DNA from: Deltaproteobacteria bacterium
GTDB taxonomy: Bacteria > Myxococcota > XYA12-FULL-58-9 > JABJBS01
Length of the DNA stretch: 39,689 nt
Assembly (NCBI GenBank): GCA_018668695.1
Contig: JABJBS010000217.1
Coordinates: forward strand, 1 to 39,689
Reading direction: 5' to 3'
The position numbers and the translations under genes were made by a program. This document shows positions 20,517 through 39,689 of this stretch, piece after piece (position 1 is the first letter of the stretch; the number at the start of each line of letters is the position of its first letter). Below the pieces are notes generated by a model, which saw nothing but the letters and a program-made list of their open reading frames with translations, was not told the origin of the DNA and ran no database searches.

Positions 20517-22022
20517 ATGAATCATAATCTGTTTGGCCTAATGCACACGCCATACCGTCGACGAGATTTTCTCAAGCAATTATCAGCATTTACCCTCACG
20601 ACCGGTTTTTCTGGTTCAATGCTAAGCGGATGTGGTGGTGTAGCAGTAGACGATGCTTCCGGCCTGATTCTACCAAGTGGTGAACCGATAGCGATTCCGT
20701 TCGACTCATCCATACCGTGGTGGCTACAAGGAAACTTTGCGCCCGTTGCTAATGAAACCGAAGCATTTGATCTTCCTGTTCAAGGAGCAATCCCCGACAC
20801 GCTCAACGGACTCTACGTACGTAACGGCTCCAACCCGCAGGCCGCAGATTCATCGCACTGGTTTTTTGGTGATGGAATGCTTCACGGCGTCCGTTTAGAA
20901 AACGGGAAAGCAGTCTCGTATCGCAATCGCTATATTCAAACAGATAAATACCTTGATGGTGACTCTGGGGGACCTCCTACCGGCGGAAACAATTCTTCGA
21001 ATGTGAGCGCAATCTACCACGGAGGTAAACTTCTGACTTCCGGGGAAATTGGATTGCCGTTCGAAATTAATGTGTCGGACTTATCCACCGTTGGCGTGAC
21101 GAATTTTGATAACTCGATTCAAACTTCGTTTACGGCGCATCCAAAGATCCATCCGGCCACCGGCAACCTTCATTTCTTTGGCTATTGGTTTGCAGAGCCT
21201 TACCTAACTTACCATGTGGCAGATCCCACGGGTAAGGTGATTCACACACAACCTATCCCGGTTGGTAAACCTACGATGGTCCATTCATTTGCTATCACTG
21301 AGCAAGATGTCGTGTTTTGGGAATGTCCGGTTGTCTTTGACCTTGCAGCAGCAGCAGCCGGAGCGGATAACCCATTTCAGTGGCAACCTGAATATGGGGC
21401 CCGGGTGGGAATTATGCCTCTAGGAGGTATGGCATCTGAAATTCGTTGGAAAGAAATCGATCCTTGTTTTGTGTTTCACGAAGTGAATGCTTTTAGGCAG
21501 GGCGATGATGTAGTGGTAGACCTTTGCAAGTACAGCACCATGTTCCAGGGTGGAGCGAGTTTGGGCGGGTCGGGCGAAAGTTCACTGTCTCGATGGACGA
21601 TTGGCACGGGGGGCGACGAGTTGTCGTTTTCTGAGCAGATTATCACGAGAGCGTCTTTAGAGCTTCCCGCTCACGACCGTCGTTTTTCCGGAAGAAAGAA
21701 TCAGCATGGTTGGCTTCTCGAAATGAGAGACGACCCAAATACTGTCGATTTCGCAGGTATTACCCATGTTGAGATGGATTCGGGGAATATCTCAACATGG
21801 GACCCAGGTTTAAACAATCACGCAAACGAACCCTTTTTCGTCCCCGATGGAGAGGGTGAGGGTGAGGGTTGGCTGCTCACCTATGTATTTAATCACTCAA
21901 GCAACAAAAGTTACCTAGCGATTCTAAATGCTTTAGATGTGGCGTCGGGCCCGGTCGCGAGTGTTGAACTGCCTCAGCGGGTTCCCTTTGGCTTTCACGG
22001 AGTCTGGGTGCCCAATAGCTAA
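20517..22022 (+). CDS. Carotenoid oxygenase family protein with Tat signal and lipobox
   Basis: A 501-residue member of the carotenoid cleavage oxygenase (RPE65/lignostilbene dioxygenase) family. The four iron-binding His are in the right contexts: H208 (TAHPK), H256 (MVHSF), H321 (FVFHEVNA) and H494 (FGFHGVW). The opening NGLYVRNGSNP and WFFGDGMLHG is the family N-terminus. A twin-arginine motif RRRDFLK at 14-20, then a hydrophobic stretch and MLSGC39, indicate Tat export as a lipoprotein, which is unusual for this family. It would cleave a double bond in a carotenoid, retinoid or stilbene-like compound outside the cytoplasm. The stop is 1 bp from the convergent ABC transporter stop. Confidence 0.9.
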   Translation: MNHNLFGLMHTPYRRRDFLKQLSAFTLTTGFSGSMLSGCGGVAVDDASGLILPSGEPIAIPFDSSIPWWLQGNFAPVANETEAFDLPVQGAIPDTLNGLYVRNGSNPQAADSSHWFFGDGMLHGVRLENGKAVSYRNRYIQTDKYLDGDSGGPPTGGNNSSNVSAIYHGGKLLTSGEIGLPFEINVSDLSTVGVTNFDNSIQTSFTAHPKIHPATGNLHFFGYWFAEPYLTYHVADPTGKVIHTQPIPVGKPTMVHSFAITEQDVVFWECPVVFDLAAAAAGADNPFQWQPEYGARVGIMPLGGMASEIRWKEIDPCFVFHEVNAFRQGDDVVVDLCKYSTMFQGGASLGGSGESSLSRWTIGTGGDELSFSEQIITRASLELPAHDRRFSGRKNQHGWLLEMRDDPNTVDFAGITHVEMDSGNISTWDPGLNNHANEPFFVPDGEGEGEGWLLTYVFNHSSNKSYLAILNALDVASGPVASVELPQRVPFGFHGVWVPNS

Positions 22023-27329: not shown

Positions 27330-29549
27330 TTAGTCACAACCGGTGGTTTTGTTGTTATTAATTGTTCGGTTGTCTGAGTAGGAGATTTGCCAAGGGTTTT
27401 GGCCGAAAACTTCCTCAACGAGACAGAGGTTTGGGTTGTAAGTGATATCGAGAGTGCCTGCTTGCATAAGGTCTGGAACCCAAAATTTATTCAAACTAGG
27501 ATTGTAGCCAATCTTCAGGGTGTTGGTTACCTGCAAAAGTCTTTCCATCGAGACCTCCAGCAATTCCTCATTTTCATGATATGTACAATCTTGGCCGACG
27601 CAGAACTGATAACGCTCGACTCTGAGGCTCTCTCCTATAACTCTTAAATTATCAAGGTTGAGTCTGCTTAGTCCGTCCACCCATCCCAGCCCTGCTGGAG
27701 ATTGGGGAACAACTGTAACTGACCCAGTCACCTGGTAGATCTGGTCAAAGCTATAATTTGCAACAGCACAGAAATCGCAGCTCCAATAGTAGGCTTGAAT
27801 TGTTAAATTACCGTCGATCACGTTGCAGTTTTCGATATCATTATTAGATCCACTGGTAACTAGAAAGTCACCCTCGCATACAGTGCTCTCGCAATTTGGG
27901 CAGCCGTGAAACAAATCTGTAGTAACCCCGTTGCTGTATGAACCTTCATCGCACTCTTCATAGTCTTCATCGATGGTGTTGTCTCCACAATAATGGGTAA
28001 CTCCATTTTGATTTTGGCAATTTGAATTACAAACAGTGCATGACTGAAGACCATAGGCACAAGCTTCAAGCTGTGTGTTTCCGTCGTCGCAAGTTTCGTA
28101 CGCGTTATCCGTGGCGCCATCACCGCAATAATGGGTAATGCCGTCTTGCTCCTGGCAGGTAGAGTTACACACCCGGCATGACTCCAGGCCATAGTCACAC
28201 TCTTCTGTCTCTGTATCACCTTCATCACAGTTTTCGTGGTTAGAGTCGATCAATGTGTCTCCACAATAGCTGGTTTCACCAGAGACCCATTCACAACTAG
28301 GATTGCATACGCTACAGGATTCAAGTCCATATTCGCAGATCTCAAGCTCTAAGTTTCCATCATCACAAGCTTCGTAGCCGGCGTCTGTATTCCCATCGCC
28401 GCAGTAACTGATCGAGCCCTCAAAGTACTGGCATTGTTCATTGCATAATGAACAGCTTTGTTCTCCATAGGCGCATTCAGTGGTGAAGGTGCCCGACAAT
28501 TCGCACTGTTCCCCATTATCTGTATCAACCCAACCATCTCCACAATAACTGGTTGTCCCTGCTTCTAATATGCATTCTGGTGAACACACTTCACATGACT
28601 GTTCGTTGTAGTTACATGCCAGGCTTAAAGTATTGCCATCATCGCATGCTTCATTGGCGCTTTGATTTGTTAGCGAGTCACCACATTCGGCGGGTGTACA
28701 GTCCACGTCGCATTCGGCACTTTCGCCTGATGCGTCGCAGCTCTCACCAGCAGATTGGTTCGTGTTGCCATCGCCGCAGAAGCTAAACGTGCAGTCATCG
28801 TCACAGGATTCAGACTCTCCTGCATCATCACAAAGTTCAAAAACCGGATCGAATTTACTATTGATTTCTTCGAACCGCTGAAAACCATCTCCGCAAAAAG
28901 CATTTCTACAGTCTGTCAGACATGCGTCGTTATTACTTAGGTTTCCATCATCACACTCTTCCTGACCTCGCTGCACACCGTCGCCGCAAACGTTTTCTCC
29001 GCAAACTCCTAAATTACAAACCAGTTCGCCGCCGCATTCGTAGTCGAAACCGCAGTCATCGCCTTCTTGAAGGTCAAAGCATTCTAAAGCGCCATTGCAT
29101 TGTTGGACGCCGCATTCATCGGCTGGGTCTTCTCCAGCTGGAATGGCTGCACAAACTCCGTTGTCGTTAGAACCGCCAGTTAACGCGGCTGAGCATGCTG
29201 AACAAATACCGTCACAAGCAGACTCACAACACACGCCGTCTACGCAAAAACCACTGGCGCACATTTGTTCATCGGAGCATAGGCTTCCATTGGTTTCTTG
29301 AGGAACACATTCTTCGTCCAGGCAATAAAATCCATCTGCGCAGGGCGTTTCTTCTGAACATGCAGGGTCAATGGTTGAAGGGTCGCTTGAGTCTGCTGCG
29401 TCACTTGCGTCAATTACGTCACTCGCATCTGCCGCATCACTCAAAGTTCCAGGCACGTTTTCATCATCACCGAACACCACACAACCCGAAATGAGTAAAA
29501 CGAGACAAGTGGTGGAACAGAAATTTAAAACGCTATGCATATGTTTCAT
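27330..29549 (-). CDS. Lipoprotein with nine DUF4215 Cys-rich repeats and receptor-L-like C-terminal domain
   Basis: The 739-residue protein starts at the ATG at 29549 (GGAG upstream). A lipobox (LLISGC, C23) marks it as a lipoprotein. A Ser/Asp/Ala linker follows (about 36-60), then Cys-rich segments, then nine repeats (about residues 188-560) built on CGDG...CDDGN...C..C. Four of them carry the long form with YGLESC-VCN and TxYCGD. The last 150 residues (INGNLT-like IDGNLTI, LSRLNLDNLRVIGESLRVE, LDITYNPNLC) resemble receptor L / ECM33-type beta-helix repeats. It is surface exposed and disulphide rich. Its role may be adhesion or ligand recognition; no catalytic residues are seen. Confidence 0.85.
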   Translation of the reverse strand: MKHMHSVLNFCSTTCLVLLISGCVVFGDDENVPGTLSDAADASDVIDASDAADSSDPSTIDPACSEETPCADGFYCLDEECVPQETNGSLCSDEQMCASGFCVDGVCCESACDGICSACSAALTGGSNDNGVCAAIPAGEDPADECGVQQCNGALECFDLQEGDDCGFDYECGGELVCNLGVCGENVCGDGVQRGQEECDDGNLSNNDACLTDCRNAFCGDGFQRFEEINSKFDPVFELCDDAGESESCDDDCTFSFCGDGNTNQSAGESCDASGESAECDVDCTPAECGDSLTNQSANEACDDGNTLSLACNYNEQSCEVCSPECILEAGTTSYCGDGWVDTDNGEQCELSGTFTTECAYGEQSCSLCNEQCQYFEGSISYCGDGNTDAGYEACDDGNLELEICEYGLESCSVCNPSCEWVSGETSYCGDTLIDSNHENCDEGDTETEECDYGLESCRVCNSTCQEQDGITHYCGDGATDNAYETCDDGNTQLEACAYGLQSCTVCNSNCQNQNGVTHYCGDNTIDEDYEECDEGSYSNGVTTDLFHGCPNCESTVCEGDFLVTSGSNNDIENCNVIDGNLTIQAYYWSCDFCAVANYSFDQIYQVTGSVTVVPQSPAGLGWVDGLSRLNLDNLRVIGESLRVERYQFCVGQDCTYHENEELLEVSMERLLQVTNTLKIGYNPSLNKFWVPDLMQAGTLDITYNPNLCLVEEVFGQNPWQISYSDNRTINNNKTTGCD
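27870..28990 (-). repeat. Nine tandem DUF4215-encoding repeat units
   Basis: The units of about 110-150 bp encode one Cys-rich module each. The DNA has drifted, so amino-acid similarity is stronger than nucleotide identity. The protein repeats alternate short units (CGDG-N-C) and longer ones with an added CxxxxQSCxxCNxxC segment. Edges are approximate. Confidence 0.7.
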
Positions 29550-29810
29550 CGTATGATTCTCCAGTAACCAGGTCGATGCGTTTGAATCGGTTGTTGCTTC
29601 ATCCAAAGACGGTGGGTCGCTGGCCTGAGGCCCGAAACCGGGGGAGAGTCGATAATGAGACACTTCGCGATGGGGTCCTGCTTAATCAGTGGCATCCCAT
29701 TGGTCAATGCGCAGGGCACTGATTTGGTGACTCTTTTTGGTTTTTCGAACGCGCGGATGAGCGTGAAAACTCTTAAAGATCTTGGGCACCAAGGACTATC
29801 AACATGCATC

Positions 29811-31088: not shown

Positions 31089-32189
31089 ATGTCAGCGTTG
31101 GTACAAATCGAAAGTGTTCGGGAAAAGCGAAAGAATTCTCTCCAAGAGAGTGAAACTTTTGGCAGTTTCGACCGAATCATCGAAGGCTGGTACTGGCTCA
31201 TCCCTTCGCACAAAGTCAAAAAGGGTAAAATCAAGCCGGTCAACACGATGGGGCGCGAGCTGGTTGTGTTTCGAGGCGATGACGGTGTGGTCCGCATTAT
31301 GGATGCGTACTGCCCTCACATGGGCGCTCATTTGGCAGAAGGTAAAGTCGACGGCAATGGCGTACGCTGCTTTTTTCATCATTGGAAACTCAGCGAAGAA
31401 GGTAAGGTTGTAGATATACCCTGTCAGAAACATCCTGTTCGCGCAGGTGTTCGCACATGGCCAGCCGAAGAGAAATACGGAATGGTCTGGATTTATACGG
31501 GCGAAACTCCCAAGCATCCGGTGCCTTATATTCCTGAGCTTAAAGATGAAGAGGAAGATTTTGCTTTTGGGAATGCATTTGAAAAAGGCTGCCATCCGAA
31601 TATCGTGATGGTCAATGCTATCGATGAGCAGCATTTTCACTCCGTACACCCCATGGCATCGTCTCTGGCAGACGGCCTTCATTTTGATATTTCGTCTTAC
31701 AACGACAATTGCCAAATATTCGACAATAACAAGCCTGTTCCGAAAACGAGCCTGATCAACCGATTTCTGAGTCGATTTTATGAAGGTCCGCTCACTTACC
31801 GTATGGTCTATTGGAATGGTTCAACAGGCTCTGTAACCATTGGTCCGGATATGTTGCACTTTCATATCATCTTTGCGCTGCGCCCATCGGCACGAGGAAC
31901 CGCTGAAGGGCAAACACTCTTAGTAACGAAAAAACGTTCCGGAGTTTTGGGATGGGTAGCCAACCGTATGTTGTTGTGGGTGACAAAAGTAGTTGGCAAT
32001 TACTTTGCAAAAGGGGACACTCAGGTGTTTCAAACAATTCGGTGGAATTTCAAAACACCGATTAAAGCCGACCGACCGATTTTGGCATTCTCGAAGCACT
32101 TAACGGGGCAGAGTACTGTACCGTGGGGCTCGTGGGATGGCGATGTTGACAATAATGCGGTGTTCAACGGCAAAGGAGCTGAGGCATGA
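31089..32189 (+). CDS. Rieske-type non-haem iron oxygenase, first of the operon
   Basis: A 366-residue oxygenase alpha-subunit type protein. The Rieske [2Fe-2S] ligands are C75-x-H77 and C94-x-x-H97, and the mononuclear iron site is D179-x2-H182-x4-H187 in NAIDEQHFHSVHPM. Both centres are complete. It starts at the ATG at 31089, which has GGAG at 6 bp; earlier in-frame ATGs at 31059 and 30936 have poor sites. Such enzymes hydroxylate or demethylate aromatic or sterol-like compounds using electrons from a ferredoxin; one is encoded five genes downstream. Its last 4 bases overlap the next start (ATGA). Opening a ten-gene operon suggests the first oxidative step. Confidence 0.9.
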   Translation: MSALVQIESVREKRKNSLQESETFGSFDRIIEGWYWLIPSHKVKKGKIKPVNTMGRELVVFRGDDGVVRIMDAYCPHMGAHLAEGKVDGNGVRCFFHHWKLSEEGKVVDIPCQKHPVRAGVRTWPAEEKYGMVWIYTGETPKHPVPYIPELKDEEEDFAFGNAFEKGCHPNIVMVNAIDEQHFHSVHPMASSLADGLHFDISSYNDNCQIFDNNKPVPKTSLINRFLSRFYEGPLTYRMVYWNGSTGSVTIGPDMLHFHIIFALRPSARGTAEGQTLLVTKKRSGVLGWVANRMLLWVTKVVGNYFAKGDTQVFQTIRWNFKTPIKADRPILAFSKHLTGQSTVPWGSWDGDVDNNAVFNGKGAEA

Positions 32190-32968
32190 AAGCGATGTTT
32201 GCAAAAACAGTCTCTGCGAAAAGTATTGGTGAATCAGAACGACAGACCATGTACGGACTCATGCAGCAGTATTATGAGTGCATGGCGTGGGACCGGTTCA
32301 ATAAAGACCTCGATGACAAAGATGACGTCATTCTTTTAATGGACAAAGAGACGGGAACCATCAAAGGTTTTTCTACGCTTAAGAATATCGAGATAAAAAT
32401 TGGTAAGAGTAAGGCGTTTGGGGTCTTCAGTGGCGACACGGTTGTTGACCGTGCTTTTTGGGGCCAGCGCGTTTTAGGTAAAGCATTCTTACGCTACCTG
32501 TTTTTACAGAAAGCCCGGCGGCCTTTCACTCCATTTTACTGGATTTTAATCAGCAAGGGTTACAAAACTTACCTTCTTCTCGCCAATAACTTCAGTGAGC
32601 ACTATCCTCGATATGAGCAAGAAACGCCTCGGGATGCGCAATCCCTGATGGACCGTTTTGCCAATAGCCTATTTGGTGATGCGTACAATGGCGACACCGG
32701 CCTGATTCACTTTAAAGAGTCGCTTGGGCAGCTACGTGAAGGTATTGCTGATGTACCGACCGGCACATCTTTTCAGAACCCCCGTATTGCATATTTCGCA
32801 AAACAAAACCCAACCTGGGCAGATGGATCTGAACTCATGTGCATTGCACGCATGACCTGGTCCATGCCGCTGTATTATGTCTGTAAGTCATGGTGGAAAT
32901 TGATGGCACGACCATTCCTTAAGCGTGCCGCATTGAAGTCGAAAAATCTTCCTGAGATTGCGGGATGA
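32186..32968 (+). CDS. GNAT-like acyltransferase homologue of uncertain function
   Basis: A 260-residue protein. Residues about 45-115 have an N-acetyltransferase-like order: a strand with VILLMDKETG, a strand with GFSTLKNIEIKI, then GVFSGDTVVDRAFWGQRVLGKAF at the place of the acetyl-CoA loop. The match is weak and the C-terminal half is unrecognised; short aromatic-rich segments (FTPFYWILISKGYKTYLL) may be membrane-facing. The start overlaps the Rieske stop, and the stop overlaps the SDR start (ATGA both times), so it is translated as part of the pathway. It may be an N-acyltransferase like the FeeM/N-acyl amino acid synthase group, but I am not sure. Confidence 0.6.
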   Translation: MKAMFAKTVSAKSIGESERQTMYGLMQQYYECMAWDRFNKDLDDKDDVILLMDKETGTIKGFSTLKNIEIKIGKSKAFGVFSGDTVVDRAFWGQRVLGKAFLRYLFLQKARRPFTPFYWILISKGYKTYLLLANNFSEHYPRYEQETPRDAQSLMDRFANSLFGDAYNGDTGLIHFKESLGQLREGIADVPTGTSFQNPRIAYFAKQNPTWADGSELMCIARMTWSMPLYYVCKSWWKLMARPFLKRAALKSKNLPEIAG

Positions 32969-33798
32969 AGAAGGTCCTAATTACGGGCTGCTCATCTGGT
33001 GTGGGACGAATGCTGGTTCGCCCATTTCTTGAGAATGGGTGGTCTGTTGTGGCGACGATGCGGCGAGCCGCTGAGCGACAAGACCTTTTTAAACAAGAGT
33101 TAAGTGACTACCCCAAAAGTCTTGTGATTAAGAACTTAGACGTTATCTCACAAGAAGACCGCTCCATGATGGCCTCTTATATTCAAGAAGGCGGAATCGA
33201 TTGCTTGGTTAACAATGCGGGGTTTGCGCTTTTTGGCGCCCTTGAAGACTACAGTGAAGCTCAAATCCGCAATCAATTGGAAGTAAATTTAACGGCTCCG
33301 ATCCTTTTAACGAGGGCCTTTCTGCCGGCTCTGCGTCTTAAAAAAGGACGGGTGATTAACGTCTCGTCCATGATGGCATTTACGAGCTTTCCGCTCTCGT
33401 CCGTCTATTGCGCATCTAAATCTGGTCTAAGCATATGGTCGGAGGCTATGCGCCATGAACTCGCCGAGCTTGGCGTGTCGGTGCATGTGGTAGAACCGGG
33501 CGGTTTTCGTACCAACTTTGGAAGCAATATTGAATGGGGTACCGGTGATGTAAGCGATTATCGCACCTGGACCCAAGGGTACCATCGGTTGCATGATCAA
33601 CTTAGTGAAGGAACAGGTAAGGCACCAGCGCCCGTAGTCAACCGAATTCTAAGTATTGCTAAGGGCGAGAGCAGAGCGCTTCGATACCGAGCAGGTCTTG
33701 ATGCATTCATGACCGCCCTGATGAATTGGCTGATTCCGGAGAACATTCGTCTCTTTGTGATGGGGCGCCTGTTTAAGAAGGTGTTTACTCGGAGTTGA
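32965..33798 (+). CDS. Short-chain dehydrogenase/reductase of the operon
   Basis: A 277-residue classical SDR. TGCSSGVGR binds NAD(P)H, NNAG is present, and Ser in VSSMMAF with YCASK gives the catalytic set. The C-terminus (about 230-277) has a hydrophobic, Arg-rich extension (MNWLIPENIRLFVMGRLF) that could attach to a membrane. Overall it resembles 17beta-HSD-like and retinol-dehydrogenase-like reductases. It overlaps the upstream GNAT-like gene by 4 bp and is 3 bp from the di-iron gene downstream. Its job in the pathway is probably to oxidise or reduce an alcohol made by one of the oxygenases; substrate unknown. Confidence 0.9.
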   Translation: MKKVLITGCSSGVGRMLVRPFLENGWSVVATMRRAAERQDLFKQELSDYPKSLVIKNLDVISQEDRSMMASYIQEGGIDCLVNNAGFALFGALEDYSEAQIRNQLEVNLTAPILLTRAFLPALRLKKGRVINVSSMMAFTSFPLSSVYCASKSGLSIWSEAMRHELAELGVSVHVVEPGGFRTNFGSNIEWGTGDVSDYRTWTQGYHRLHDQLSEGTGKAPAPVVNRILSIAKGESRALRYRAGLDAFMTALMNWLIPENIRLFVMGRLFKKVFTRS

Positions 33799-33801
33799 AC
33801 T

Positions 33802-34713
33802 ATGGGTGATGTAACCCTCGATAGCATCTTAGAGATGCAAAATAGCGATGCTGAGAGTCGTTTACATACGGTGCTGGGAGCTGGTCTAAAAAAGCTTCTC
33901 GGTGACCGTGCGCGTGACCCTGCACCGGTTCCTCTCTGGCTTCCCAACTATTTCAATCTCGACAAGACCAAGGCTTTTAAAAATGCCAGTGAAGAGCAAC
34001 GCGCCCACATTATCAGTGGCTCAAGTCAGGCTCTCTTGGAGGAAGCACTTTACATAGAGCAAAGTGGAATGGCCTATGCCGCGAAGATGTCTATCATGGC
34101 CGACACAATCGAAGAGCGTATGCTCTATGGACTTTTCGCTGCCGACGAGACGACGCACTACCATCAGGTAAGGCAGTTTTTGCCAGAACAGGGACGAAGC
34201 TGCGAGCCAAGTGAATTTCACTCCTTACTGACAAGCTTGATTCAAGAAGGCGATAGGGAAAGTTTGGTCTTCGTGATTCAGGTTGTCCTTGAGGGATGGG
34301 GCCTGACTCACTACCGCTCTTTGGCCCAAGGGTGCCAAAGCGAAGAATTTACCGAAGTTCTAAAAAGCATCCTACGAGATGAGGCCCGCCATCACGGCAG
34401 TGGTGTGATTTTGTGCCGGGAACGCGGTTTGCCTGATGCTAGCCGGGACTACGTGAATCAGATTCTTACAACCTTCCTTTATATGGTTCAGCTCGGTCCG
34501 CAGTCGGTGTTAAGCGCAGTGGAGCAGGCAACAGGCGGACTGACACGAAGCCAAAAGCTCGAACTTTTCAATGAGCTTGATGGTACAGGACAAAGCCAGG
34601 AGCGCTTGAACCTTCTTAAGGGCTTAATGCAAGAAGACGGTTTCACACATGTCGCGGATTATCTGGAATCCAAGGGAAGTTTCAAGGCGATGCGTGCGGA
34701 GGATTGCATATGA
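33802..34713 (+). CDS. Ferritin-like di-iron carboxylate protein, putative oxygenase
   Basis: The 303-residue helical protein has the classic four-helix di-iron pattern: E86, E116-x-x-H119 (DETTH), E164 (VVLEGWG) and E194-x-x-H197 (DEARHH). The spacing fits a ferritin-like oxygenase or desaturase rather than bacterioferritin. No family name is certain. It starts 3 bp after the SDR stop, and its last four bases ATGA contain the ATG of the AurF-like gene, so the two di-iron proteins are translated together. Inferred activity: O2-dependent hydroxylation or desaturation of a pathway intermediate, with electrons from the ferredoxin downstream. Confidence 0.78.
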   Translation: MGDVTLDSILEMQNSDAESRLHTVLGAGLKKLLGDRARDPAPVPLWLPNYFNLDKTKAFKNASEEQRAHIISGSSQALLEEALYIEQSGMAYAAKMSIMADTIEERMLYGLFAADETTHYHQVRQFLPEQGRSCEPSEFHSLLTSLIQEGDRESLVFVIQVVLEGWGLTHYRSLAQGCQSEEFTEVLKSILRDEARHHGSGVILCRERGLPDASRDYVNQILTTFLYMVQLGPQSVLSAVEQATGGLTRSQKLELFNELDGTGQSQERLNLLKGLMQEDGFTHVADYLESKGSFKAMRAEDCI

Positions 34714-35894
34714 GAACTCTTCCCGCGGCCGTTCCTGCGCTAAGCGAGGATAAAAAAACGTCCAAGAAAATCGCTATCAACCACAAACGAAACAAGAAAC
34801 AAGATCATACTGAGCTTTTGGACCAATGCGCGAAAGACTTCAGGTACGAAGACTGTAAAGATGAATATTGGAACCCTGAGGAATTTTCACTTCTTTATGC
34901 AACGCCACTTTGGATTGAGGCAGACGAAGGGCAAAGGGTCCTCTTGAATCAGTTGTTTTGGGTTGCCTACTATTCGCAAATCATCTCGGCCGAGGTTGCC
35001 ACAATCTTCTTTAATCAGACGAGTGCCGCCGGAATGTATGCTCTAGAAGGGTTTCGCGATGTTTGCGATATGCTCGACTTGGAATCGGCTCAGGAGCGGG
35101 CGCACATCAACGCATTTAAAACTGTATCCGACCAGTTCGAAGAGGCCGTGTTCGGTGAGCGAGTATTTTCTTGGGAGATGCGCGGACCTTACGCTCAGAC
35201 TATGATTTTCCCTGATTCGAATAAGCTAAAGGATTGGTGGAAGTCGCTGCAACTGCGAACCTTCGGCTTACTCTCGGCGGGCAATGCCTTTATCGCCTCT
35301 CAATATTTTACTGTTCGAGGCATGCGAACGCTCAATGGGAAAATGGTTCAGCAAAAGCTGAGTCTTTATTATCAACGGCATCCGGACCAAGAAAATGCGC
35401 CCTTGCCGTCGGCAATCAGCTACTACCATTTCATGGATGAGTCGTTCCATTTCAACAGCTCATGTATTTTAGGTCACGATTTAATAGGCTCTCTGCCAAA
35501 GCCAACCGCGTTTGAGCGGATGGTCGGCAATAAAGGTATTCGAGGGTGTCAATTTGACCATCGAAATTTTTCCGCCGTAGTGAAAGGTTTGTTTTGGTAT
35601 GAGCCAGCGACTTTCGAGGCAGTTTATAAAGTATTACGCAGTGATATTTTCAAAATGGAAGATGTTGAAGCTCGTCACATGATGTACCGATGCTTTGGTG
35701 AGGAAAACGATGGAAACACCGCTTCCTTTGACGTGCTTAAAACCGCAGCAGACTCTTACGAGAAGTTCCTCGATCCTCTCGATTACGTTTCGGATCGAAA
35801 CAGAAAAATGCAGGTTATGCGCGACACAACACTGGAAGGTTATCTTTCCACCAACCGAAGGGCTCTATCCCGGTTTAGAGGTATGAACGCATGA
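34710..35894 (+). CDS. AurF-like di-iron N-oxygenase-family protein
   Basis: A 394-residue protein. The ligand pattern follows the AurF (p-aminobenzoate N-oxygenase) family: E95, E129-x-x-H132 (QERAHINAF), and H240-x3-E244-x2-H247 in YYHFMDESFHF. The additional carboxylate found in AurF between these helices is not evident; the region 183-213 contains no Glu or Asp. Family members oxidise aryl amines or related nitrogen groups; others hydroxylate C-H bonds. The ATG at 34710 has GGAGG 7 bp upstream and overlaps the preceding stop (ATGA); a TTG at 34704 is less likely. It is followed by a ferredoxin overlapping by 4 bp, the expected electron donor. Confidence 0.78.
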   Translation: MRTLPAAVPALSEDKKTSKKIAINHKRNKKQDHTELLDQCAKDFRYEDCKDEYWNPEEFSLLYATPLWIEADEGQRVLLNQLFWVAYYSQIISAEVATIFFNQTSAAGMYALEGFRDVCDMLDLESAQERAHINAFKTVSDQFEEAVFGERVFSWEMRGPYAQTMIFPDSNKLKDWWKSLQLRTFGLLSAGNAFIASQYFTVRGMRTLNGKMVQQKLSLYYQRHPDQENAPLPSAISYYHFMDESFHFNSSCILGHDLIGSLPKPTAFERMVGNKGIRGCQFDHRNFSAVVKGLFWYEPATFEAVYKVLRSDIFKMEDVEARHMMYRCFGEENDGNTASFDVLKTAADSYEKFLDPLDYVSDRNRKMQVMRDTTLEGYLSTNRRALSRFRGMNA

Positions 35895-36178
35895 GTGAAC
35901 ATAAAGTCACATTCCAAGATACTTCCTACGAGCCGCAGATGGTCTCGGAGGGAATGAGCTTATCCGAAGAATTAGATGCCTCGAACTCTCCATTGCTCTT
36001 TGGGTGTCGTACTGGAATTTGCGGAACGTGTATTGTTGAAATCGAGGGGGATCTACCGCCCCCAGGTGAAGATGAGCAGGAAATTCTAGAAATATATGCT
36101 GAAGATAACCCGAAGGCACGCTTGGCTTGTCAGGTGGATATGACGTGCTCCGTACATATTCGTCCTTTGGAAGAATAA
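35891..36178 (+). CDS. Plant-type [2Fe-2S] ferredoxin
   Basis: A 95-residue ferredoxin. The cluster ligands are C39, C44, C47 and C80 (GCRTGICGTC ... RLACQ), the plant/cyanobacterial-type spacing. It is small and acidic, so a soluble electron carrier. It overlaps the AurF-like gene by 4 bp and is 17 bp from the second Rieske gene. It is the only electron carrier in the operon and can serve the Rieske and di-iron enzymes; a matching reductase is not present in the window. Confidence 0.95.
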   Translation: MSEHKVTFQDTSYEPQMVSEGMSLSEELDASNSPLLFGCRTGICGTCIVEIEGDLPPPGEDEQEILEIYAEDNPKARLACQVDMTCSVHIRPLEE

Positions 36179-36195
36179 TGCTCTAGGAGGAGCAA

Positions 36196-37218
36196 ATGGA
36201 TTTTCGTGATTTCTGGTATGTGGTTGCCGAGAGCCGAGAATTAAAGCAGGGCGACGTGCTCGCTCGAAAGCTTATGGGTGAATGGCTCGCAGTGTTTCGG
36301 GATGAAGACGGCAAACCAGCCGCGGTTCAAGACAGGTGTAAGCACCGTGCGGCACAGCTCTCGCTTGGCAGTGTTGAAAACGGTTGTTTGCGGTGCCCTT
36401 ATCATGGCTGGACGTACGATAAAGAAGGCGAAGTCGTGGAAGTTCCCTCTGAAGGCGAGAACTTCAAGCGCGCAAAGAGTCGTCGTGTTCAAAAATATTC
36501 CACGATGGAAAAGGACGACTACGTTTATGTTCGCCTGCAAGACGGCGAGCATGCCTGTGATGAACCGTTTAAAATGCGTCATTACGGCGAAGAGGGTTGG
36601 CATACAGTACGGCTTATCAACCGGTTCCAGAATAACGTTACCAACTGTGTTGAGAACTTCATCGATATTCCCCATACCGTTTATGTGCATCCCGGAATTT
36701 TTCGAAATGAGCGTCGCCAAAAAATAGATGTCGAAGTGACTCGAAAAGAAGGCTGGGTGAAGGCCATCTATAAAAACGAAACGGATAACCTCGGCTGGTT
36801 CAGTAAGTTACTCAACCCGGATGGCTCAGAGATTGTTCACACCGATGAATTCTTTATGCCGAATGTTAGCTGCGTGGAGTATATCTTCGGGCCGAAGCGG
36901 CACTTTATTATTACCTCGCAATCTATTCCGTTAGAAGACGACGAAACACTCGTCTACACAGACCTCACCTACAACTATGGTATATGGAATAAACTTGCCG
37001 CACCGATTGTGCGTTGGCAGGGCCAGGCCATTATCAATCAAGACATCGAAGCATTGGCCAATCAGATGGAAGTCATCAAGAAATACGGTTCAAAATTTGC
37101 CAATACGCCAGCAGACACCATTCACGTTTATGTTGAGACCATTCAGCGCGAACTAGAACGTGGTAAAGACCCTCGCAAACTTCCTGAGAAGTGTGTCGAG
37201 GTTACGATGCTAGTTTAG
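36196..37218 (+). CDS. Rieske-type non-haem iron oxygenase, second of the operon
   Basis: A 340-residue oxygenase. The Rieske ligands are C48-x-H50 and C67-x-x-H70 (CPYHGWTYD), and the mononuclear iron site is D157-x2-H160-x4-H165 in ENFIDIPHTVYVHP. This pattern is close to vanillate/pheophorbide a oxygenase-type enzymes. It differs in sequence from the first Rieske gene, so the operon uses two separate Rieske steps. A strong GGAGG precedes the ATG. The substrate is unknown; a cyclic or aromatic compound is likely from family behaviour. A 6-bp gap leads to the sterol-desaturase-like gene. Confidence 0.92.
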   Translation: MDFRDFWYVVAESRELKQGDVLARKLMGEWLAVFRDEDGKPAAVQDRCKHRAAQLSLGSVENGCLRCPYHGWTYDKEGEVVEVPSEGENFKRAKSRRVQKYSTMEKDDYVYVRLQDGEHACDEPFKMRHYGEEGWHTVRLINRFQNNVTNCVENFIDIPHTVYVHPGIFRNERRQKIDVEVTRKEGWVKAIYKNETDNLGWFSKLLNPDGSEIVHTDEFFMPNVSCVEYIFGPKRHFIITSQSIPLEDDETLVYTDLTYNYGIWNKLAAPIVRWQGQAIINQDIEALANQMEVIKKYGSKFANTPADTIHVYVETIQRELERGKDPRKLPEKCVEVTMLV

Positions 37219-37224
37219 GTCCAT

Positions 37225-37983
37225 ATGATGGAGCTCTTAACGACAATAGACCCTGGTACGTGGGCTCTCTTCATCTCATTTTGGGCCCTTGTGATAGCAA
37301 CGGCCGCGGTGTCCGGCGGGGCATCTATCTTTTTTCAGCGCAAAAAAGACGATTGGATTCTCGATGGAATAAGTCTGTTGGTTCAAGGCGCGCTGATTCC
37401 ACTCTTACAAGTTTTTTTGGTCGCCACGTGGTTAACCAAATTCGCTCCAACATCAGCAGGTAGCTTAGAAGTCCAGCCTGTTCTAGCATTTGGACTGTGC
37501 TTTGTGGGTGTGGATTATCTATATTATTGGAATCATCGAATCCTTCATACAAAACCTCTGTGGCCAGTGCATTTGGTGCATCACACTGCGGGACAAATGG
37601 ATGTGCTGACGACCTCTCGCAATACAGTCTGGAGCAGCTTGCTGATTGTCTACCTATGGGTCAACGGCACAGTGGTCTACCTCTTGGCTGATCCCGCCCC
37701 CTATGTGGCTGCAATTACTCTTACCGCCGTTTTGGACTTATGGAGACATTCGCCGTTGCAGCCTAAGGGGCCCGTGGAGAAAATATTAGGCAGTGTTCTT
37801 ATTCTTCCTCGCGACCATGCTTGGCACCACTCTCAAGATATTTTCGATGTTAATTTCGGGGCCAATTTAAACCTTTGGGACAAGCTACACAGGACGTGGC
37901 ACCCGGCGGATACCGCGCCCCAAGAGCTTGGCGTTAAAACAAATATTTCCCTGGTTTCCAGGTTACTGTGGCCATTTCAATGA
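37225..37983 (+). CDS. Sterol desaturase/fatty-acid hydroxylase superfamily membrane protein
   Basis: A 252-residue integral membrane protein with the di-iron histidine boxes of the fatty acid hydroxylase family: H104-x3-H108 (NHRILH), H116-x2-H119-H120 (HLVHH), and H198-x2-H201-H202 (HAWHH). Hydrophobic helices occur at about 12-30, 50-70, 88-101 and 140-172. Family members hydroxylate or desaturate sterols, fatty acids or sphingolipids. Here it would modify a lipophilic product or a lipid part of it. The start follows the Rieske stop by 6 bp and the stop overlaps the next start (ATGA). Confidence 0.9.
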   Translation: MMELLTTIDPGTWALFISFWALVIATAAVSGGASIFFQRKKDDWILDGISLLVQGALIPLLQVFLVATWLTKFAPTSAGSLEVQPVLAFGLCFVGVDYLYYWNHRILHTKPLWPVHLVHHTAGQMDVLTTSRNTVWSSLLIVYLWVNGTVVYLLADPAPYVAAITLTAVLDLWRHSPLQPKGPVEKILGSVLILPRDHAWHHSQDIFDVNFGANLNLWDKLHRTWHPADTAPQELGVKTNISLVSRLLWPFQ

Positions 37984-38600
37984 CATTAGCAGGTAAACTC
38001 ATTACTTTTTTCCCCGGCCTTCACGCACTTTTGGTGCTAGGAGCAGGCGGTTATTTTATTGTGGTTCCCAATTGGTTGAGCGCGCTCTTGATTCCATTGG
38101 CCATCTATATCTTCCCGTTGATTTGCTACCATCTGCATCAAATGGTTGCGCCAATTGTTGAAGGTGAGTCAACTATCATCGGCACGTATTCCCCATGGTA
38201 CGGAAGTCACATGATTCAGCTCGTATTCATAGGTTTCCCATCGTGCGAGAGATTCTTACGCCTCTTTCCTGGCGTATTCTCTGTTTGGCTTAGGCTTTGG
38301 GGAAGTAAGGTGGGTAAATCGGTCTACTACACTCCTCATTTAGAACTCGCGGACCGTGGACTTCTCGAAATCGGACATGGCTGTGTATTCGGTTATAACG
38401 TTAAAATTGCAGGTCACTATATTTCTCCGAGCAAGGAGAAGGGCCTAAAGCTTTACGTGCGAAGAGTGGTTATTGAAGATGGCGGTTTCGTTGGCGCGGC
38501 CAGCCGTTTAGCCCCTGGTGTCGTTGTTAAATCAGGAGCTTTGGTAAAAGCCACGGTGGATGTGTATCCGGATACGGTGGTTGAGAAGAAGTCTTCATGA
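37980..38600 (+). CDS. Left-handed beta-helix acyltransferase-like membrane protein
   Basis: A 206-residue protein. The first third is membrane-embedded (two hydrophobic stretches at about 8-30 and 33-52). The rest has hexapeptide-like repeats typical of the LbH acyltransferase fold, such as LLEIGHGCVFGYNVKIAGHY and VVIEDGGFVGAASRLAPGVVVKSGALVKAT in part. It is short for a complete enzyme, so it may act on a lipid head group or with a partner. The ATG at 37980 overlaps the upstream stop (ATGA); 37968 is an in-frame alternative start. The stop overlaps the GH3-type gene start by 4 bp. The acyl donor and acceptor are unknown. Confidence 0.75.
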   Translation: MTLAGKLITFFPGLHALLVLGAGGYFIVVPNWLSALLIPLAIYIFPLICYHLHQMVAPIVEGESTIIGTYSPWYGSHMIQLVFIGFPSCERFLRLFPGVFSVWLRLWGSKVGKSVYYTPHLELADRGLLEIGHGCVFGYNVKIAGHYISPSKEKGLKLYVRRVVIEDGGFVGAASRLAPGVVVKSGALVKATVDVYPDTVVEKKSS

Positions 38601-39689
38601 GAAGGCTGCTCTTTTATGTACTGCGATGGATGGCTTGGCCTTTTGCCCGGCGGTTTCGCGGCGCTCTTGAAAATCCCCGTGGTGCTCAAGCGAATGTATT
38701 GGCCGCGATTACCGCTGAACTTCGACAAACAGATTATGGGAAACATTTGGGCGTGGAGACGACCGAGGATTTTCGGAAGAAAGTCCCCGTTGTTGACTAT
38801 GATGACTTAGCGCCGTGGATTGAGAAGCAAAAGAAGTTCGAATCAGGCGCACTCATTGCAACCAAGGTTCTCTTCTACGAAAAAACTTCCGGTAGTACAG
38901 GCCCAGCAAAATATATACCTTATACAAAGGCTCTGCGAACAAGCTTTACCAGAATGTTCCTTGTTTGGGCTTATGATGTGGTTGCCCGAGGACCAGGGAT
39001 TGGTTCTGGGAAGTTGTACTTTTCGGTATCGCCATCTTTCGACGAAGAGAAAAGCACCGAAAGCGGTGTGGCTGTTGGTATGGATGATGATGCTGAGTAT
39101 TTAGGCGGAATTTGGCGGCACTTAATGTCGCCTTTTTTTCTTTCGCCGGTGGGTCTTGGACGAGTGCGTGACCCAGAAGTGTTTAAGCGAAAGTTAAGTG
39201 AAGCGCTCTTGTCATGTGAGGACCTTGAGTCGGTTTCGATTTGGAATCCCTCTTTCCTGACGGTTATTTTAGACTTCATCGAAGACAACGCTGTGTGTCT
39301 CGCTGAATCGGTGGGAAGTAAAATGAGCCCTGAGCGACGGGCGGCGCTCGAAAACAAACCGATTGATTGGCAAAAGATTTGGCCGAACCTTAAATTTATT
39401 TCAGCCTGGTCCGATGCGAATGCGAGGCCACTGGCGGAAAAGCTCCAAGAAAAGATGCCCCACGCGCTGGTTCAGGGAAAAGGCTTATTGGCCACAGAGG
39501 CGCCCATGACGATCCCCATGATTGGAGTGCAGGGCGGTGTACCTCTTGTGAACGAGGTCTTTTTGGAGTTTCAAAATGAGGCGGGAGATTTGTTGGCGGT
39601 AGACGAGCTAGAGTTAGGCGAGTCTTACAGTCTTGTTGTCTCACAACGCGGCGGGGTGGTACGGTACCGTATGGGCGATCAGGGTGAGG
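38597..39689 (+). CDS. GH3-type adenylate-forming acyl-amido synthetase (3' end missing)
   Basis: The frame opens at ATG 38597 and runs to the window edge, so 364 residues are seen and the C-terminus is cut off. It matches the GH3/auxin-responsive acyl-adenylating superfamily: the phosphate-binding EKTSGSTGPAKYIPYT, the internal GKGLLATEAPMTIP, and a YRMGDQGE ATP-binding motif close to the cut. GH3 enzymes activate carboxylic acids as adenylates and join them to amines or thiols. In bacteria they occur in small biosynthetic clusters. It overlaps the acyltransferase gene by 4 bp (ATGA). It would activate the oxidised acid and make an amide or thioester. Confidence 0.85.
   Translation, partial: MRRLLFYVLRWMAWPFARRFRGALENPRGAQANVLAAITAELRQTDYGKHLGVETTEDFRKKVPVVDYDDLAPWIEKQKKFESGALIATKVLFYEKTSGSTGPAKYIPYTKALRTSFTRMFLVWAYDVVARGPGIGSGKLYFSVSPSFDEEKSTESGVAVGMDDDAEYLGGIWRHLMSPFFLSPVGLGRVRDPEVFKRKLSEALLSCEDLESVSIWNPSFLTVILDFIEDNAVCLAESVGSKMSPERRAALENKPIDWQKIWPNLKFISAWSDANARPLAEKLQEKMPHALVQGKGLLATEAPMTIPMIGVQGGVPLVNEVFLEFQNEAGDLLAVDELELGESYSLVVSQRGGVVRYRMGDQGE

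Follow-up and report, generated by a model that had tools for sequence, protein, structure and literature searches.

A ten-gene oxygenase operon from a probable myxobacterial relative belongs to an orphan class of Rieske-containing CylC-family gene clusters

Results

Organization of the operon

The stretch of DNA analyzed here (the window) is the entire 39,689-bp contig JABJBS010000217.1 of Deltaproteobacteria bacterium, whose right-hand end carries ten open reading frames (genes 1 to 10), all on the plus strand and spanning positions 31089 to 39689. Six of the nine junctions (genes 1/2, 2/3, 4/5, 5/6, 8/9, and 9/10) are ATGA overlaps, with 4/5 counted from the ATG at 34710 and 8/9 from the ATG at 37980, and junctions 3/4, 6/7, and 7/8 have gaps of 3, 17, and 6 bp, respectively. 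This recomputed layout agrees with a first-pass annotation of the window, which had described ten same-strand genes with six such overlaps and short gaps. A promoter scan of the window returned fewer matches than scans of shuffled sequence. Because the window ends with the contig, gene 10 is truncated and the operon may continue into downstream sequence that lies out of view.

Pfam matches above the cut-off were obtained for both Rieske proteins and for genes 3, 6, 8, and 10, and only matches below it for genes 4 and 9; the scan gave no family for genes 2 and 5. The iron enzymes keep their catalytic residues in alignments of 44 to 56 relatives. Gene 1 (31089 to 32189) encodes Rieske oxygenase 1, of 366 amino acids (Pfam Rieske, 1.3e-21), with C75, H77, C94, and H97 and also D179, H182, and H187 conserved in about 55 loci; its nearest PDB entries are 3-ketosteroid 9a-hydroxylase and, by the N-terminal half, SxtDIOX/SxtT. 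Rieske oxygenase 2, encoded by gene 7 (36196 to 37218; 340 amino acids; Pfam Rieske, 2.7e-27, plus VanA_C), conserves C48, H50, C67, H70, D157, H160, H165, and D283, and is nearest in the PDB to the dicamba demethylase DdmC. Gene 4 (33802 to 34713; 303 amino acids) encodes a ferritin-like di-iron protein with weak Ferritin_2, DUF455, and MiaE matches below the gathering cut-offs, in which E81/E86, DE116xxH119, E164, and E194xxH197 are conserved (49 loci). It is followed by gene 5 (34704 to 35894), for a CylC-family ferritin-like di-iron enzyme of 396 amino acids counted from a TTG, the ATG at 34710 being the likely start, and by gene 6 (35891 to 36178; 95 amino acids), for a plant-type [2Fe-2S] ferredoxin (Pfam Fer2, 6.6e-10) with C39, C44, C47, and C80 conserved among relatives. 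Gene 8 (37225 to 37983; 252 amino acids; Pfam FA_hydroxylase, 2.1e-24) belongs to the membrane fatty-acid-hydroxylase/sterol-desaturase family; its conserved His motifs are H104..H108, H116..H119H120, and H198..H201H202, and its hydrophobic segments mark it as membrane-type.

The other four genes encode a dehydrogenase, two acyltransferases, and a synthetase. The AlphaFold2 model of the gene 2 product (32186 to 32968; 260 amino acids), built from a 23-member family alignment with a mean predicted local distance difference test (pLDDT) score of 88.2, matched GNAT-fold acyltransferases in Foldseek (E value, 5e-6; probability, 1.00). Gene 3 (32965 to 33798; 277 amino acids; Pfam adh_short, 7.6e-43) encodes a short-chain dehydrogenase/reductase (SDR). 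Gene 9 (37968 to 38600, with the ATG at 37980 as the likely start) encodes a left-handed-beta-helix (LbH) acyltransferase, recognized by weak LbH matches; two N-terminal hydrophobic segments, kept in 39 relatives, mark it as membrane-type. Gene 10 (38597 to 39689; Pfam GH3, 1.3e-34) encodes a GH3-type acyl-adenylating amide synthetase, of which 364 amino acids are visible, compared with 518 in the closest relative of the cluster, locus L003. It has the conserved nucleotide-binding motifs of GH3 acyl-amide synthetases (TSGSTGPAK, E301, and YRMGD), and the full-length L003 protein matched plant GH3 structures at 4.7e-19. Pfam and structural comparisons therefore back the families named in the first-pass annotation, including the AurF-like fold of gene 5, although not the chemistry then ascribed to that gene, whose product carries the QExxH/HxxDExxH signature of CylC-type enzymes.

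Conservation and distribution of the neighborhood

Using gene 5 as bait, we collected 59 loci (57 named loci and 2 from the host phylum), so that the remaining nine genes played no part in the selection. Of these loci, 49 hold six or more of the ten genes inside 13.4 kb, a span within the 15 kb that had been suggested for a co-occurrence check. When only loci exceeding 19 kb are counted (40 loci), at least six genes are present in 39 and at least eight in 34. We therefore reject a chance neighborhood, and the scattering of these genes in related genomes, which had been named as evidence that would count against the cluster, was not found. Carriers include Cyanobacteriota (with Melainabacteria/Obscuribacterales), Bdellovibrionota, Myxococcota, one Planctomycetota bin, and Alpha- and Gammaproteobacteria (Pseudomonadota). 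Nostocales frequently carry the cluster, and its cultured carriers include Nostoc, Calothrix, Tahibacter, and Bacteriovorax; with isolates among the cyanobacteria, Bacteriovorax, and Tahibacter, concern about mis-binning is limited.

Two modules recur, one comprising genes 1, 2, 3, and 4 and the other genes 5, 6, 7, 8, 9, and 10. They are divergent in Bacteriovoracales, Melainabacteria, and locus L132, and fused in line in the window, in L003, and in L062, the last without gene 3. The SDR gene is found in 14 of the 59 loci and is absent from most cyanobacterial versions. Cyanosarcina radialis carries gene 5 on one contig (C2) and genes 6-7-8 on another (C32), and has kept both parts. Co-localization across five phyla and this retention of split genes support the earlier proposal that the genes form a single pathway.

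A further Rieske gene lies 3' of the GH3 gene in L003 (L003:9485-10513), and an extra Rieske oxygenase recurs at varying positions in the clusters, including after gene 5 in cyanobacterial loci, indicating that lineages differ in how many oxidation steps the pathway has. In L062, an insertion of about 5 kb between genes 7 and 8 (L062:3978-8960) includes a nucleoside-phosphorylase-family protein.

In the host phylum, the cluster is sporadic (3 of 195 genomes, from three families). In RpoB comparisons the host falls nearest to an order mate and, when only named genomes are considered, nearest to a Myxococcales bin (63%, partial sequence); it is therefore likely to be related to the myxobacteria. 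In the gene 5 tree, the window protein groups with that of L003, a gammaproteobacterial bin (support, 100/99), which makes horizontal transfer or repeated loss likely. GC content is even along the contig (0.48 to 0.52) and supports a foreign origin neither way. Elsewhere in the window, an RPE65/carotenoid-cleavage-dioxygenase-family gene (20517 to 22022, plus strand; Pfam, 4e-116) encodes a further iron oxygenase; it lies 9 kb from the operon and shows no evident link to it. A gene at 27330 to 29663 (minus strand) encodes a large Cys-rich protein with ECDDGN/CGDG repeats, presumably of the type associated with myxobacterial surface proteins.

Gene 5 departs from CylC-type halogenases at one essential residue

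The gene 5 model (AlphaFold2; pLDDT, 91.6; alignment of 23 to 24 relatives) adopts a CmlI/AurF-like fold in Foldseek (best E value, 8e-3; probability, 1.00; TM score by query, about 0.42), and its sequence found no match among PDB sequences, even by profile search. CmlI and AurF, which are arylamine N-oxygenases, are among its best structural matches and share most ligand positions with it. This would suit a nitro, nitroso, or hydroxylamine product, in line with the N-oxygenase-type chemistry first assumed for the gene. However, the Foldseek E values are weak, sequence searches group the gene 5 family with CylC and away from the N-oxygenases, and two active-site residues differ, Gln130 (in QExxH) replacing Asp135 of AurF and Gln216 replacing its ligand Glu196, as placed via the CylC-type alignment and the published AurF-CylC correspondence (PMC12101540). 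In CylC-type enzymes, too, Gln stands at the place of Asp135 (PMC12101540). On the strength of the two substitutions we reject the assignment as an AurF N-oxygenase and regard such a product as quite improbable.

In the halogenase NocO, nine residues (QExxH, HxxDExxH, and two further Glu) are all needed for chlorination, and the Ala variant of one of these Glu, E252, is inactive (PMC12101540). Eight of the nine are found in gene 5: E97, Q130-E131-H134, and H242-D245-E246-H249 are invariant in 56 aligned proteins, the window protein included, so that both the QExxH and HxxDExxH motifs of CylC/NocO dimetal halogenases occur in 56/56 cluster proteins. The comparison set consisted of 13 CylC-type proteins. 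Nine came from searching whole genomes of cyanobacteria that carry the cluster; the other four, from plasmid records, are remote matches, none of which belongs to the gene 5 clade. Where contexts were checked, the CylC-type genes lie beside fatty acyl-AMP ligase (FAAL), acyl carrier protein (ACP), and polyketide synthase (PKS) genes (next to locus L098), in FAAL-ACP-PKS/nonribosomal peptide synthetase (NRPS) surroundings (two plasmid records), or with sulfotransferase/P450 genes (Stanieria). The ninth position is Gln216 in all 56 cluster proteins, whereas it is Glu in 13/13 CylC-type proteins; in the CylC-type alignment rows shown, this Glu precedes the first His of HxxDExxH by 27 residues, as E252 does in NocO. 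The cluster proteins thus read EQEH-Q-HDEH, against EQEH-E-HDEH in the CylC type, and lack the full NocO set; two relatives from the host phylum likewise have Gln. In all, 18 positions, Gln216 included, separate the two groups, and the tree, midpoint-rooted for drawing only, splits 42 cluster proteins from 9 CylC-type proteins at 100/100, with very long stems of 1.7 and 2.0 changes per column.

On sequence grounds, gene 5 is a homolog of the CylC-type halogenases with the same predicted cofactor pattern and a mismatch at one defining residue. It may still be a genuine di-iron radical halogenase that operates without an ACP and yields a halogenated fatty-acyl amide, as the 2021 classification of its homologs implies; that survey places them with dimetal-carboxylate halogenases (PMC8406957), and the eight shared residues, Gln130 among them, agree with this. 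Nevertheless, an essential NocO Glu is Gln across the gene 5 clade, which casts doubt on the published "halogenase" label, and the 18 dividing positions, the long stems, and the missing ACP add to that doubt, leaving a halogenated product rather unlikely. Gln216 might still act as a hydrogen-bond partner; what the exchange does to the chemistry we infer rather than observe.

Scaffold and substrate

As noted in the first pass, the locus holds no PKS, NRPS, or terpene cyclase. PKS, NRPS, FAAL, ACP, and cyclase are also absent from the scanned neighbors and from those families recurring in at least five loci that were scanned or read. The combination of Rieske, SDR, and sterol-desaturase-family proteins resembles SdmAB/ERG25-type demethylation, and the SdmA 4beta-methylsterol monooxygenase is the best NCBIfam match of genes 7 and 1, albeit far below the cut-off. 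A pathway that tailors a sterol, hopanoid, or carotenoid would nonetheless require a scaffold that many carriers seem not to make: squalene/phytoene synthase (PF00494) is encoded by the window's host but missing from 9 of the 17 genomes with the cluster, some of which are incomplete bins but which include the isolates Bacteriovorax sp. BSW11_IV and Tahibacter harae. We therefore rejected such scaffolds, which this absence largely refutes for the whole class and which are highly improbable for this operon; primary metabolites such as acyl chains are left.

Several observations indicate an acyl chain and an amide bond. Gene 8 remotely resembles the NCBIfam OlsE model (3e-17) and the GH3 protein the OlsH model (18.7 bits for the cut gene and 41.7 bits for full-length L003, against an equivalog cut-off of 620 that neither reaches); OlsE and OlsH both act in ornithine-lipid metabolism, and OlsH works on free fatty acids without an ACP (PMC12493201). 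Acyl chains are the substrates of CylC-type enzymes (PMC12101540), and central fatty-acid intermediates were proposed as substrates by Eusébio et al. in 2021 (PMC8406957). Amidohydro_3 hydrolases recur as neighbors of the cluster (an 18-locus group, with Pfam run on two). A Mpo1-like 2-hydroxy-fatty-acid dioxygenase domain is fused to Amidohydro_3 beside the cluster of a gammaproteobacterial bin (L046:6436-8541) and stands alone within that of a Bacteriovorax (L054:16474-16881).

Rieske oxygenases with a ferredoxin are also frequent in catabolism, and a pathway breaking down an environmental aromatic or lipid would agree with the sporadic occurrence in the host phylum. Within the ten genes, though, there is no ring-cleavage dioxygenase, thiolase, or coenzyme A (CoA) ligase, GH3 and the two acyltransferases are conjugating enzymes, and the carriers include photoautotrophs and obligate predators, so that a degradative role appears improbable.

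Discussion

We propose, with about an even chance of being right, that the cluster tailors an ordinary fatty acyl chain or fatty-acyl amine into a membrane-associated oxidized N-acyl-amide (amino)lipid; the lipid-linked product suggested in the first pass is accordingly plausible. The substrate, drawn from primary metabolism, would be hydroxylated, desaturated, or otherwise functionalized at C-H bonds by the products of genes 1, 4, 5, 7, and 8, with gene 6 relaying electrons from a host reductase and gene 3 interconverting hydroxyl and ketone. Genes 2 and 9 would transfer acyl groups onto an amine and a hydroxyl, and gene 10 would adenylate a free carboxylate and couple it to an amine; the order of these steps and the gene 5 reaction are likewise proposals. 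More tentatively, and on the doubtful side, gene 5 may represent a sister family of the CylC halogenases, one that does not halogenate and acts on free or CoA-bound acyl chains, within a new class of oxidized N-acyl-amide lipids spread over five phyla.

Certain points weigh against the N-acyl-amide lipid. The OlsE and OlsH scores are far below the family cut-offs, the Rieske enzymes resemble DdmC, SxtT, and 3-ketosteroid hydroxylase, which act on ring or small polar substrates, and the ten genes of the operon include no acyl-CoA ligase, ACP, or transporter. The amidohydrolase neighbor could be incidental, the GH3 enzyme has no assigned amine acceptor, and the cluster class is without a known product.

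The operon is of interest because a single pathway brings together five predicted iron oxygenases with an ACP-free amide synthetase. In addition, a clade-wide Glu-to-Gln exchange at a position essential in NocO offers a test of di-iron halogenation versus hydroxylation or desaturation, and many genes now labeled CylC-like halogenases may not be halogenases.

The system is not undescribed, as had been thought. "Rieske-containing" clusters of CylC homologs from cyanobacteria were catalogued, without a product, by Eusébio et al. in 2021, and their similarity network holds a small number of proteobacterial homologs, mostly from Deltaproteobacteria, and two from Melainabacteria (PMC8406957). The window is a member of this class from a probable myxobacterial host, sharing a sterol-desaturase-family protein, a single CylC homolog, acyltransferases, and the lack of a carrier protein; the cluster proteins also form a clade sister to the PKS-associated CylC homologs, as in the published description. 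That class has 2 to 4 Rieske proteins; the window has two, and L003 and most cyanobacterial loci have a third. Unlike the class as there described, the window is one tight ten-gene operon with an SDR (PMC8406957). GH3 is not mentioned in the text of that paper searched, nor are GNAT, LbH, and the Gln216 substitution in the passages covered. In the open-access literature searched, neither the Gln/Glu split nor the GH3/GNAT/LbH composition was reported, and no later paper dealt with a product of the Rieske type, so that the cluster matches a catalogued class but not a functionally characterized pathway.

Compared with CylC and NocO, which belong to FAAL-ACP-CylC-PKS clusters, gene 5 has the same ferritin-like CmlI/AurF-type fold and both metal-binding motifs, but it is shorter (396 amino acids versus 455 to 480 in most), carries Gln216 for the essential Glu, and is accompanied by no FAAL, ACP, or PKS. 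The OlsH/OlsI ornithine-lipid pathway of Singulisphaera (PMC12493201) shares with the window a GH3-like enzyme and, on our proposal, an amide lipid and acylation of a hydroxyl. It differs in that the cluster's GH3 protein scores only 42 bits (cut-off, 620) with the OlsH model, and in its O-acyltransferase, an alpha/beta hydrolase rather than the LbH-type protein of the window, which has in addition five iron oxygenases.

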